From a virus, in the IMG/VR virus record IMGVR_UViG_3300044949_002358, positions 1 through 23,068 of that record: DNA of 23,068 nt. One strand, given 5' to 3'. Below are positions 1,456-17,200 of this stretch, piece after piece; within the stretch, counting starts at the first letter, position 1; each line of letters begins with the position of its first letter. The translations under genes and the position numbers were made by a program. Under the pieces are notes generated by a model that saw only the letters and a list, made by a program, of their open reading frames with translations, did no database searches and was not told the origin of the DNA.

Positions 1456-1806
1456 TTAAATGCGCGAGAGGCAAATACGGGCAACGCCCTGGCCTGGGGA
1501 AGCAATGCGAGAGAAGCTTCCGTAGGACAAATCAAGAATGCGACCGCCCGAGTATGGGCCACGGTCATTGATTGTCACCACTACGGTCTTGCCGTTGTCA
1601 CGATTCTTCACTTTTACTTTGGTGCCCATGGGAAGCGAGGGGTGAGCAGCGGTGAGACCGTAAGCATTGAAGCGAGCGCCGCTGGCAGTGGTTTGGCCGT
1701 GATAGCCATCGCCAATGCCATAGTGACTGGCTTGTCCGCACGACAAAGTAGCCGCTTGGACAGGAGCGCTGCCAAGCAGCAGAAGGGGAATTAGGAAACG
1801 TAGCAT
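1456..1806 (-). CDS. RlpA-like double-psi beta-barrel protein, secreted
   Basis: Chosen start is ATG 1806, which puts a clean signal peptide first (MLRFLIPLLLLGSAPVQA, probable cleavage near residue 18); 15 more codons are open upstream. The mature part is a complete RlpA-type double-psi barrel: SHYGIGDGYHGQTTASG at 27-43, LTAAH 51-55, LPMGTKVKV 58-66, TINDRGPYSGGRILDLS 78-94. RlpA proteins act on peptidoglycan, some as lytic transglycosylases on strands without stem peptides; the Asp of NDRGP and His of TAAH correspond to the catalytic pair. No SPOR domain is present, so only the enzymatic core is carried (116 residues). In a phage this could help lysis, superinfection exclusion or wall remodelling. 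It is far from the main lysin (15855-16799) and on the other strand. Confidence 0.9.
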   Translation of the reverse strand: MLRFLIPLLLLGSAPVQAATLSCGQASHYGIGDGYHGQTTASGARFNAYGLTAAHPSLPMGTKVKVKNRDNGKTVVVTINDRGPYSGGRILDLSYGSFSRIASPGQGVARICLSRI

Positions 1807-1866
1807 CAAAACAGAGAGAGTGGCTAGCGAGGAACGCGAGCATCTCGGCAAGCGTTCTGACTATTG

Positions 1867-14515: not shown

Positions 14516-14897
14516 GAGCCGCCCTCAAATGTTTGACCCCGTAAACAACCCCCTTCATTACAGTTCTGGTGGCGTGGAAGCTATTGAAGCGCTGGAAGCT
14601 TGCATGACGCCTGAAGCGTTTAGAGGATTTCTAAAGGGCAATGTCATCAAATATGTTTGGCGGTATGAAAATAAAAATGGCTTGGAAGATTTAAAGAAAG
14701 CCAAGTGGTATCTAAAAGCTCTTATTTTTGCTTTAGAAATGGAGCAAGAAAAAGAAGCTCTGGAAGCCATTGAAGGCAATTGCAAAGACGGCTTTTGCCC
14801 TATGCCTGGTGCAAGCAGCCCAGATACAATCGTAGGAGTGCGTTTTGACAATCCTCTGCAGTCATATAATTTCTTTGATCCAGTTCACGATGGTTAA
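14499..14897 (+). CDS. DUF3310 (SaV-like) protein
   Basis: ATG 14499; it begins within the end of thyX. The core VNNPLHYSSGGVEAIEALEA, FRGFLKGNVIKYVWRYENKN, then GLEDLKKAKWYLKAL (about residues 16-75) is the DUF3310 signature, found in many phages and often called nucleotide-kinase-like because of the SaV protein. A charged helix and a C-terminal tail with QSYNFFDPVHDG follow. It is the last gene of the nucleotide block. Its stop overlaps the convergent HNH stop, and a bidirectional terminator follows. Confidence 0.9.
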   Translation: MTPPSESRPQMFDPVNNPLHYSSGGVEAIEALEACMTPEAFRGFLKGNVIKYVWRYENKNGLEDLKKAKWYLKALIFALEMEQEKEALEAIEGNCKDGFCPMPGASSPDTIVGVRFDNPLQSYNFFDPVHDG

Positions 14898-15382
14898 GCA
14901 GCGCAAATTGCTGGTATTAAAAAGCCCCCGACAATGGGGGCTTTTTCTTGCGCAGGAATATAAAGACCGCGATCCTCGGCATAAGCTTCCACATCATGCA
15001 GCGACGTATGGGCACTAACAAAACTATTGCAATGCACCCAAGTGGTTAATATTTCCTCCCGACGCGGCGTCCAAAATTGCTGCGGCCGCCACCATTCAAA
15101 AATAGGCTCAGCGCCTTTGTCTAGATTACAACTCTTGCACGAAGGCACTAAATTATATTTTGCAAAGTGAGGACCACCTTTGCTTTTGGGAACAATATGA
15201 TCCAGGGTAAGTTTTTCGCTCCATTTGCCGCAGTAAGCACAAGCACAATGGCCGAGCGGTCCTTTTAATGGGTAGTCTTCAAAAATACTTTTTCTAAAGC
15301 GTCGTCGTGCATCTCCAGGGCGAAGTTCAATGAGAGAATGTAGCAGCTCATCGGGACCATTCGCTATTTGCATGGGGAGCAT
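14894..15382 (-). CDS. HNH endonuclease
   Basis: ATG 15382 gives 162 residues; the frame is open for 36 more codons upstream but those overlap the plus gene at 15463 and look non-coding. Zinc-binding HNH fold: CACAYCG (C48, C51), LTLDHIVPKSKGG with D61-H62, NLVPSCKSCNLDKG (C82, C85, N86). This is the layout of free-standing homing-type or packaging-linked HNH nucleases. It lies opposite to all its neighbours, between the nucleotide and lysis blocks, which suits a mobile gene. The last codons (EKAPIVGGFLIPAICAA) are read through the terminator hairpin at 14919-14946. Confidence 0.88.
   Translation of the reverse strand: MLPMQIANGPDELLHSLIELRPGDARRRFRKSIFEDYPLKGPLGHCACAYCGKWSEKLTLDHIVPKSKGGPHFAKYNLVPSCKSCNLDKGAEPIFEWWRPQQFWTPRREEILTTWVHCNSFVSAHTSLHDVEAYAEDRGLYIPAQEKAPIVGGFLIPAICAA
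14919..14946. terminator. Bidirectional intrinsic terminator
   Basis: AGCCCCC/GGGGGCT stem with a six-base loop, flanked by A5 on the left and T5 on the right, so it can work on both strands. It separates the convergent DUF3310 and HNH genes and lies inside the 3' end of the HNH frame. Confidence 0.85.
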
Positions 15383-15462
15383 ATTTAATTTTCTTGCCAC
15401 TAATCTAACGGCTAAATTTGCCCTGCTGAGAATGTTTATAATTGATAAATGCGCTACCAGCA

Positions 15463-15672
15463 ATGAAAAGCTTTCAAGAAGGACTGACAAATTTTGTTGC
15501 GACCATTACAGCAGGAATGCTGCTATCCACTGGCGCCATGCTTATCACAGTGGGCAATCAGCAGGTGAAGGTGGCCACTCAAATTGAAAGCATCACGGAG
15601 AAATTAGACACTCTCACTGAAAATATTACAGCCCTAGAAAGTAGGGTGCGCTCTTTAGAAATTCGACGCTAG
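15463..15672 (+). CDS. Membrane protein with coiled-coil tail, holin candidate
   Basis: 69 residues from ATG 15463 (an ATG seven codons upstream is less likely). After MKSFQEGLTNF there is one transmembrane segment (FVATITAGMLLSTGAMLITV, about 11-30), then a heptad-rich helix (VATQIESITEKLDTLTENIT, ALESRVRSLEIRR). Its position next to the lysin makes it a holin or holin-partner candidate; single-span holins with a charged cytoplasmic helix are known. Which of this and the next protein forms the hole cannot be told from sequence. Confidence 0.72.
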   Translation: MKSFQEGLTNFVATITAGMLLSTGAMLITVGNQQVKVATQIESITEKLDTLTENITALESRVRSLEIRR

Positions 15673-15701: not shown

Positions 15702-15845
15702 ATGAGCGGCGCTGAATGGTTTGTGATCGGTGGCATTTTGATTGCTGCTGCTGACCAAATTCTTGATCGTTCCCCCTGGAAAAGCAATAACGTCCTCCAA
15801 CTTCTGATGGAAGGACTTAAGAGCATCTTCCGTGTGAAGAGCTGA
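15702..15845 (+). CDS. Small membrane protein, 47 residues, holin candidate
   Basis: ATG 15702 to TGA 15845. MSGAEWFVIGGILIAAADQI forms one short transmembrane segment, followed by LDRSPWKSNNVLQLLMEGLK and a basic KSIFRVKS end. The order transmembrane helix, 'S-P-x-K-S-N', amphipathic helix, basic tail occurs in small proteins beside phage lysins. It lies nine bases upstream of the lysin start. Function inferred from size, topology and position. Confidence 0.72.
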   Translation: MSGAEWFVIGGILIAAADQILDRSPWKSNNVLQLLMEGLKSIFRVKS

Positions 15846-15854
15846 GGCTTAGCC

Positions 15855-16799
15855 ATGTGGGCTAATAACAGGGCGTTCTGGGACGAATGTTTCCAAATAG
15901 CCCGACGTTGCGGCGCTCGCTATCCCGAGCTTGTCGCAGCACAATGCTGTCTAGAAAGCGGTTTTGGTAAACATACCAGTGGTAAAAATAATTATCTCGG
16001 CTTAAAAGGACCGGGCACCGCCACGACCACGCAAGAGTGGTACGACGGTCAATGGGTGACGATTAAGGCTGGGTTTATTGACTTTCCCAGCCTGACTGCT
16101 TGCATTGATTATCTTGTTACGCGCTGGTATAAAAATTATCGGCACTTCAAGGGAATCAACAATGCTCCTAACCGTTACGCTGCTGCGCGTGCGCTAAGAG
16201 AGCAGCGCTACGCCACTGATCCTGACTATCCAATAAAGCTTTCTAAGCTAATGAAAGAATACGCCCCTGAGTCCACGCAAATTATTATGACTGGCCCAAA
16301 GAAAAAGCCGCAGCAGTTTGGCTTTAAGAAAGGAGATTCCCATCTCATTGTTAATGACATTAGCGAGACAATGAAAGCCTTTAATTTTGAAGGCGAATTT
16401 TTATGGGAAGTGCCATGCCTTGCTCGCGGGCAATATTCCGACAGTGAATTTAAACTAAAAAATTCAGACACTCCGCCGGGTCTTTATAAAATTGGTGCTA
16501 TTTACAAAGATTACGAAAGCAAAGGCGACAAGCCCGCTTATGATCGAACTCTTATGGCTTATGGCTGGTACAGCTTTGATTTAGTGGAGCTTGAGAATCA
16601 AGAAGCTGGCAATGGTAGGGCAGGAATTATGATTCATGGCGGCGGTAGTGCATGTGGTTGGCCCGGCGCATGGGCGCCCAAGCAACCTCTTTTCCCCACT
16701 CATGGTTGCGTACGCTGTCATAACATTGATCTTCGTGATCGAATTCTTCCCCTAACCAAAACTGGTACTATTTTTGTCAGTGTTTATCAAGAAGGATGA
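15855..16799 (+). CDS. Two-domain lysin: GH73 glucosaminidase + YkuD L,D-transpeptidase fold
   Basis: 314 residues. The N-terminal domain (about 1-137) is FlgJ-type GH73: ARYPELVAAQCCLESGFGKH at 21-40 with the predicted catalytic E34, NNYLGLKG 45-52, the EWYDGQWVTIKAGFIDFPSL segment 61-80, and YATDPDYPIKLSKLM near 119-133. After a Gly/Lys/Pro linker, residues 158-312 form a YkuD-type domain: KGDSHLIVND 159-168, PPGLYKIG 207-214, IMIHGGGSACGWPGAW 258-273 and PTHGCVRCHNID 281-292, giving the family His (261 or 283), Cys 285 and Arg 287. GH73 cleaves glycan chains; YkuD domains join or, in some cases, cut L,D peptide links. The combination would attack both parts of the wall. No signal peptide, so holin release is expected. 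Confidence 0.85.
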   Translation: MWANNRAFWDECFQIARRCGARYPELVAAQCCLESGFGKHTSGKNNYLGLKGPGTATTTQEWYDGQWVTIKAGFIDFPSLTACIDYLVTRWYKNYRHFKGINNAPNRYAAARALREQRYATDPDYPIKLSKLMKEYAPESTQIIMTGPKKKPQQFGFKKGDSHLIVNDISETMKAFNFEGEFLWEVPCLARGQYSDSEFKLKNSDTPPGLYKIGAIYKDYESKGDKPAYDRTLMAYGWYSFDLVELENQEAGNGRAGIMIHGGGSACGWPGAWAPKQPLFPTHGCVRCHNIDLRDRILPLTKTGTIFVSVYQEG

Positions 16800-17200
16800 C
16801 GCGGCAAAGTTGGTTTAATGCTTTGTGCTATGAAGCAGGATTGTGGGCCGCCTCAAAGCGGCCCTCTCTTGCTTTTCAGCCATGGTTCAAAATGCTCATG
16901 GCACATTGCAAGCCAGATTGGGTGGAGTGGAAAACTAAAATCGTCATGGAGAAAGTGGACGAGCAGGCAGCGGTGTTGGTGAAGCAATGGGAAAAAGAAG
17001 AAAGGAAAACAAAGGCCAATGCCTTGGCCGATGAAGCCAAGAAGCTTTTCCCTGATGCCATTGTCACTCCACTGCCCGATGCCATTGTCCCTTCTGTCAT
17101 GATTGAAAAAGCCCCGCCAGCGGATGCCAGCGAGGCTGTGAAGGCCCTTGGAGGGGAGCTGCGGATTACTTATCAACTCACAAGCCCAGAAGACTCTTGA
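16796..17200 (+). CDS. Hypothetical 134-residue protein after the lysin
   Basis: ATG 16796 overlaps the lysin stop as ATGA, so it is co-translated with it. Starts MTRQSWFNALCYEAGLWAAS, then a Trp-rich QPWFKMLMAHCKPDWVEWKT, a charged helix (AAVLVKQWEKEERKTKANAL), and a repeated PDAIV motif (FPDAIVTPLPDAIVPS), whose DNA carries a 12-base direct repeat (17054-17065 and 17079-17090). Highly charged and probably partly coiled. It could be a lysis accessory or spanin-like factor, but it lacks a signal or membrane segment. The last 23 bases overlap the convergent gene. Confidence 0.75.
   Translation: MTRQSWFNALCYEAGLWAASKRPSLAFQPWFKMLMAHCKPDWVEWKTKIVMEKVDEQAAVLVKQWEKEERKTKANALADEAKKLFPDAIVTPLPDAIVPSVMIEKAPPADASEAVKALGGELRITYQLTSPEDS

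Follow-up and report, generated by a model that had tools for sequence, protein, structure and literature searches.

A cyanophage endolysin joining a GH73 glucosaminidase to a YkuD-fold domain, the probable peptide-attacking half of a widespread lysin type

The gene at 15855..16799 (+ strand) of the window, the whole stretch of 23,068 nucleotides analysed here, encodes a 314-aa protein in which a GH73 domain is followed by a YkuD module. This protein is read as a bifunctional endolysin of an S-CBS4-like cyanophage, the YkuD half of which would act as an L,D-peptidase on the mDAP-D-Ala bond of the stem peptide during lysis. Judged from sequence, structural models and analogy, this reading is given a probability of roughly 0.58. 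The YkuD half probably supplies the peptide-attacking function of a lysin type that is widespread though uncharacterised. The window itself is a 23-kb virus record and a fragment of an S-CBS4-like cyanophage, a picocyanobacterial virus. It encodes a Sak-like annealing protein, dCTP deaminase, ThyX, an HNH endonuclease and tail proteins, and its gene content and order track those of Synechococcus phage S-CBS4.

The lysin frame opens with ATG at 15855 and closes with the stop codon at 16797-16799, giving 314 codons plus stop with no internal stops; its assignment comes from Pfam, PHROG and 81% identity to S-CBS4 gp063. The GH73 (Glucosaminidase, PF01832) domain covers residues 22-136 (15918..16262, +), with E 1.1e-16 and 62 bits against a cut-off of 30.2, and Foldseek relates it to 3fi7 and 5dn5. 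The YkuD module is placed at residues 145-314 (16287..16796, +) by the conserved alignment block, AlphaFold2 and Foldseek. Within it, the PF03734 core match spans residues 203-294 (16461..16736, +) with E 8.2e-6 and 26.9 bits against a cut-off of 23.4, the scores of relatives on this model reaching 37.9 bits. In PHROG, phrog_3513 'endolysin' spans residues 1-311 with E 3.5e-54. The first-pass annotation had proposed GH73 and YkuD in a single chain, with profile searches of the two halves as its check; these searches were run, both halves lie above the curated Pfam cut-offs, and Foldseek finds both folds. The YkuD domain is present as it had supposed, the conserved module beginning near residue 145 instead of 155.

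The AlphaFold2 model of the full chain, built with 42 sequences, had pLDDT 81.6 and pTM 0.63. Its comparison with the PDB in Foldseek returned both GH73 structures (3fi7, FlgJ) and YkuD/Ldt structures (4a1i, 1y7m, 6xj6, LdtMt1) at probability 1.00. Residues 145-314 modelled alone with 69 sequences reached pLDDT 91.4 and pTM 0.88, and the model matched Pgp2, YkuD and LdtMt at probability 1.00. The alignment of the YkuD domain gave zero matches to PDB sequences at E <= 1, so that the fold comparison is the sole tie of this domain to solved structures.

In the GH73 half, E34 of the ESGFG motif (codon 15954..15956, +) is the likely catalytic acid and is invariant in 23 homologues; the ES.G glutamate presumably has this role, as in the GH73 family at large. 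E61 (16035..16037, +), located in a beta-hairpin and also invariant in the 23 homologues, is a candidate for the second acid. The profile, the fold and the invariant E34 all fit the prediction that this half is an N-acetylglucosaminidase.

In the viral-contig scan, 403 candidate stretches encode some relative of the lysin, GH73-only matches being counted in. Locus counts rest on the best 80 loci per scan, and all of these best 80 of the 403 candidates match residues 1-314, or nearly so, with 79-100% identity. The median pairwise dN/dS among 23 full-length genes was 0.067 for GH73 and 0.080 for YkuD, values that are rough as dS is about 1.4 and near saturation. At the sequence level both halves are clearly constrained by purifying selection, and with all 80 kept viral loci matched over nearly the full length, the joining of GH73 to YkuD is no chance fusion. 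When the YkuD module alone was searched, the only isolate phages matched were S-CBS4, S-CRM01 and B23. The suggested link to cyanobacteria held in the searches made, in which GH73-YkuD was found only in cyanobacterial viruses, virus-like elements and a few cyanobacterial genomes.

The surroundings of the gene resemble a lysis cassette, the membrane and signal features of its proteins being judged by eye. Directly upstream of the lysin is encoded a small protein of 47 aa, hydrophobic in its N-terminal part (15702..15845, +), a homologue of S-CBS4 gp064 and, by its position, a holin-like candidate. It is preceded by a 69-aa protein (15463..15672, +) homologous to S-CBS4 gp065, with a hydrophobic N-terminal stretch, a coiled-coil-like C-terminus and weak matches to Rz-like (E 0.002) and XhlA (E 0.007) families; it is a candidate for a spanin- or holin-like function. 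The lysin N-terminus has no evident signal peptide, which together with the two small hydrophobic ORFs upstream makes up the layout of a predicted lysis cassette. A 134-aa ORF (16796..17200, +) overlaps the lysin stop codon (ATGA) and belongs to phrog_6464, function unknown. The HNH endonuclease gene (14894-15490, - strand) adjoins the lysis genes on the opposite strand and occupies the same place in S-CBS4 (gp066). Elsewhere in the window, at 1456-1851 (- strand), there is an RlpA-like DPBB protein with a signal-like N-terminal stretch (PF03330, 1.3e-23; phrog_7930, lipoprotein precursor), and an RlpA-like gene is also found close to the YkuD gene of S-CRM01.

According to the proposed mechanism, the endolysin would cross the membrane at the end of infection, aided by the small upstream membrane proteins, as the gene layout suggests. 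The GH73 half would cleave the glycan strands. In the YkuD half, His261 and Cys285 would attack at the L-centre of mDAP3, giving a thioacyl-enzyme, and the leaving part would be what lies beyond this residue, either D-Ala4 alone or a D-Ala4 that is linked to the next stem. The acyl group would then pass to an acceptor, presumably water. The net effect would be that of an L,D-peptidase trimming the stems, with the opening of 4-3 cross-links as the version relevant to lysis; cross-linked stems, beyond the free ones only, would have to be accepted as substrates. The known YkuD carboxypeptidases trim single stems, and this activity alone should not lyse a cell.

Conservation of the active site was counted over 106 distinct sequences of the lysin-type YkuD subfamily. 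The predicted general base H261 (16635..16637, +) and the predicted nucleophile C285 (16707..16709, +) are present in all 106, as are G262 and G284. T282 is kept in 105 sequences, and so is R287 of the GCxR motif (16713..16715, +). H283 of the THGC motif (16701..16703, +) is found in 82; the other 24 naturally have L, Y, M, F or R in place of this HGC histidine. The intact HG...THGCVR core claimed earlier is seen in the window protein, and its H261/C285 pair holds throughout the subfamily; H283 does not. The spacing between the catalytic residues, H-G-X22-C, is longer than the range in the H(S/G/D)X14-19C pattern described for the His/Cys pair of the YkuD fold (PMC4599014). The catalytic pair His160/Cys176 of Csd6 (PMC4599014) corresponds to H261/C285 of the lysin. 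That the catalytic residues of the lysin share one pocket is suggested by the fold matches and by the order of the motifs.

Near-complete retention of H261, G262, G284, C285 and R287 suggests that catalysis, beyond mere binding, is conserved. This bears on the possibility that the YkuD half is a wall-targeting module which holds stem peptides, possibly via the acyl-enzyme, and so concentrates the glycosidase, turnover being minor. Many lysins do carry a second domain that is binding and not catalytic, and variation at the HGC histidine is tolerated. Against such a role stand the invariance of His261 and Cys285 in 106/106 sequences, the stand-alone family members that have no fused glycosidase (loci L168, L185, L188 and L192) and the peptidase-type domain found in the same place in sister lysins, which together make it very unlikely.

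The variable histidine also has a parallel among the effectors of type VI secretion systems (T6SS). In Tlde1a, replacement of the HGC histidine (H129A) left D-amino-acid exchange in place, partly abolished carboxypeptidase activity and greatly reduced cross-linking (PMC9638812). By this analogy, the natural loss of H283 makes it unlikely that cross-linking is the selected reaction. The canonical cyanobacterial transpeptidases likewise vary at this position (TNGC, SNGC, SQGC, TRGC), so that loss of the histidine is not diagnostic. The same parallel could favour an exchange or capping enzyme like Tlde1, by which D-Ala4 would be swapped or removed, blocking repair by D,D- and L,D-transpeptidases while GH73 cuts. 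Tlde1a combines carboxypeptidase activity with D-amino-acid exchange, the latter outliving the loss of the HGC histidine, in line with the natural H283 variants, and R287 is transpeptidase-like. However, an enzyme with no evident signal peptide would come into action only as the infection ends, by which time repair hardly matters. Moreover, the lysin protein had no match to Tlde1_dom (PF10908) at E <= 0.1 in Pfam, and this model matched just one B23-type relative at E 0.058, below the cut-off. An exchange or capping function is considered unlikely.

For the preferred hydrolase reading, the ranking of structural neighbours gives some direction. The first five PDB hits of the YkuD-domain model in Foldseek are Csd6/Pgp2-type L,D-carboxypeptidase folds, with a modest margin over transpeptidases: Pgp2 (E 8.9e-6, TMq 0.57) and Bd1075 (1.5e-5, 0.55), against B. 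subtilis YkuD (7.3e-5, 0.47) and LdtMt1 (3.1e-4, 0.46), with DpaA after these. TM-scores of 0.46-0.57 for a predicted model separate hydrolases from transpeptidases without firmness. Bd1075 is taken here to be an L,D-carboxypeptidase. Pgp2 is described as an L,D-carboxypeptidase (PMC3961634, PMC8038945). Carboxypeptidase, endopeptidase and amidase activities are all on record among YkuD enzymes (PMC12729407, PMC4599014, PMC10653827). The activity of Csd6 needs H155 and W158 (PMC4599014); by an ungapped count back from the catalytic histidine, the lysin has A256 and M259 at these positions, and it is therefore not classed as a member of the Csd6/Pgp2 group. The GCxR position is occupied by Arg in many LD-transpeptidases and by Ala in the hydrolase DpaA (PMC10653827), so R287 would, by analogy, point away from hydrolysis and toward the transpeptidases.

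Context for a peptide-directed role comes from the domains with which GH73 and YkuD are combined. In the sister cyanophage lysins S-CBS1 gp24 (1.5e-12) and PSS2 gp098 (2.1e-8), Pfam finds a C39-like cysteine-peptidase domain joined to GH73, and the S-CBP3 lysin has C39 and GH73 in reverse order, the C39 match of 3.2e-4 being below the cut-off. These lysins agree with the earlier remark that peptidases are among the usual lysin partners, and a C39-like peptidase domain in the place of YkuD favours a peptide-cutting role for the latter. The YkuD module is itself found with other glycosidases. In phage B23, it stands on the N-terminal side of a GH19-type domain (Pfam match weak, at 7e-4), and the viral loci L160-L167 correspond to the B23 chain over its whole length. 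In S-CRM01, the stop codon of a GH24 lysozyme gene is overlapped by a gene that has the YkuD module at its end, and five genomes of the WH 5701 family (L219-L223) carry an intact GH24-YkuD chain of about 470 aa with YkuD at the C-terminus, confirmed for L219 in Pfam and PHROGs. From these sequences the S-CRM01 pair appears to be a GH24-YkuD chain split by a frame change. In that pair (g113/g112, L082:4156-5465), two frames overlap and the GH24 C-terminus runs on in g112, a pattern that a frameshift site, a genuine split or an error in sequencing could each explain. Among the members without a fused glycosidase, the Aphanocapsa MAG locus has a small hydrophobic and coiled-coil ORF directly before the YkuD-only ORF (L192:2687-3507), a layout like the cassette of the window without the fused glycosidase.

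By its sequence, the same YkuD subfamily thus recurs with three unrelated glycosidase families, GH73, GH24 and GH19, and this is new here. Tentatively, it may form a lysin-domain class of its own: a YkuD-fold L,D-endopeptidase that opens 4-3 cross-links at the mDAP-D-Ala bond, is confined to viruses of cyanobacteria, combines with no fewer than three glycosidase families (GH73, GH24, GH19) and could in some elements be the sole lytic enzyme of its gene; this broader proposal is put at somewhat below even odds.

When bacterial genomes were scanned for the YkuD module, 19 loci emerged, all of them cyanobacterial and 56-63% identical, and 26 of the 201 genomes of the WH 5701 family have a lysin-type YkuD. 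Most genome-encoded copies have no glycosidase and begin with a 'PERF...PQQ' module, which also starts the GH24 gene of S-CRM01. This N-terminal module of about 55 aa (MxPERFxxRFxxFKGxPQQxxGVxxL...ILxExAPWAxxFS; N-termini of L180-L198 and L082:4156-4340) had no Pfam match in L180 and is possibly wall-binding. The profile made for it was contaminated by GH19-type sequences, and the only match used was that to S-CRM01 g113. Some copies have phage-like surroundings, with a major head protein near L198 and a terminase in L185. Downstream of genome-encoded YkuD genes there is a conserved small membrane-protein-like ORF (PFDRERFVFKxLAVVIxTQL; L180:3514-3828, L196:3514-3882, L193:4053-4436), a holin-like candidate with no PHROG match. 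The GH24-YkuD coding region of L219-L223 lies at about 598-2013, the frame of L220 being longer. In the genome of L219 (L248), a catalase-peroxidase-like long ORF upstream and a SulP-like transporter downstream, both named by eye, give a cellular-looking and not phage-like setting. The five genome-borne GH24-YkuD copies may be domesticated lysins.

In the same genomes, the Pfam YkuD model scores canonical enzymes at 1e-20 to 1e-30, while the lysin type reaches about 1e-5 to 1e-7. In the tree, a single very long branch separates lysin-type YkuD from the sampled canonical enzymes of the hosts. The GH73, GH19, GH24 and PERF forms, whose labels were assigned by rule from the loci, are mostly grouped apart from one another; L177, a GH73 form, lies outside the main clade of its type. 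In an hhalign comparison of the lysin-type family with the canonical host enzymes, the aligned part was limited to 26 columns around GCxR. The data do not support a direct, recent capture of a host L,D-transpeptidase, as several genome copies lie in phage-like stretches and the canonical enzymes are on a distant branch. This part of the data also bears on whether the domain is a true L,D-transpeptidase captured from the host, which would make 3-3 cross-links or anchor proteins and be used outside lysis. The YkuD fold, the SHGC/THGC-type core and the GCxR arginine agree with such an enzyme. Its joining to glycan cutters of three families, the very long branch and far lower YkuD-model scores relative to the sampled canonical enzymes, and the fact that making cross-links opposes lysis render it highly improbable.

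If the hydrolase reading is true, YkuD as the peptide-cutting half of a lysin would add the mDAP-D-Ala bond class to the known lysin targets and would connect, in a testable way, the wall chemistry of cyanobacteria with virus exit. The natural swaps (YkuD in place of C39, GH73 in place of GH24 or GH19, His in place of Leu at HGC) are ready comparisons.

Most characterised YkuD enzymes are involved in building or trimming walls or in anchoring to them, and those of T6SS effectors damage the wall of a rival. The closest known relative is S-CBS4 gp063 'endolysin' / PHROG 3513, with the same domain order, length and gene neighbourhood, its identity of 81% extending over the full length. Its records name an endolysin, N-acetylmuramidase or lysozyme, YkuD being unmentioned in the records shown. 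Surveys list YkuD as a rare lysin domain: a PhaLP cluster of 10 entries placed under peptidases (PMC8310338), three YkuD domains in a hot-spring virome (PMC5017753) and one gut phage lysin of the order GH25-choline-binding-YkuD (PMC13284279). The arrangement is therefore not without precedent, S-CBS4 gp063 being annotated as an endolysin and PHROG 3513 covering the full chain. Among open-licence papers, neither a functional study of a cyanophage YkuD lysin nor a tested activity of a phage-lysin YkuD domain was found. Three findings are new: that the YkuD module recurs with three glycosidases, that it occupies a peptidase slot, and how its active-site residues are conserved.

The gut lysin and the PhaLP cluster likewise combine a glycosidase with YkuD or rank YkuD as a lytic domain, but with another glycosidase and host and as domain annotation only. 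The GH73-C39 lysins (S-CBS1 gp24, PSS2 gp098, S-CBP3) share the plan of GH73 plus a cysteine-enzyme domain with peptides as its expected substrate, whereas their partner fold is papain/C39-like and not YkuD. Pgp2, Csd6 and Bd1075 share the His/Cys pair, Pgp2 and Bd1075 being the closest solved folds; unlike the lysin, they are cellular and set cell shape, and Csd6 and Pgp2 have an extra NTF2-type domain. The Tlde1 effectors of T6SS also use a YkuD-type fold, there to damage the wall of a rival, but they are secreted and have no glycosidase partner, and the lysin lacks a Pfam match to their domain.
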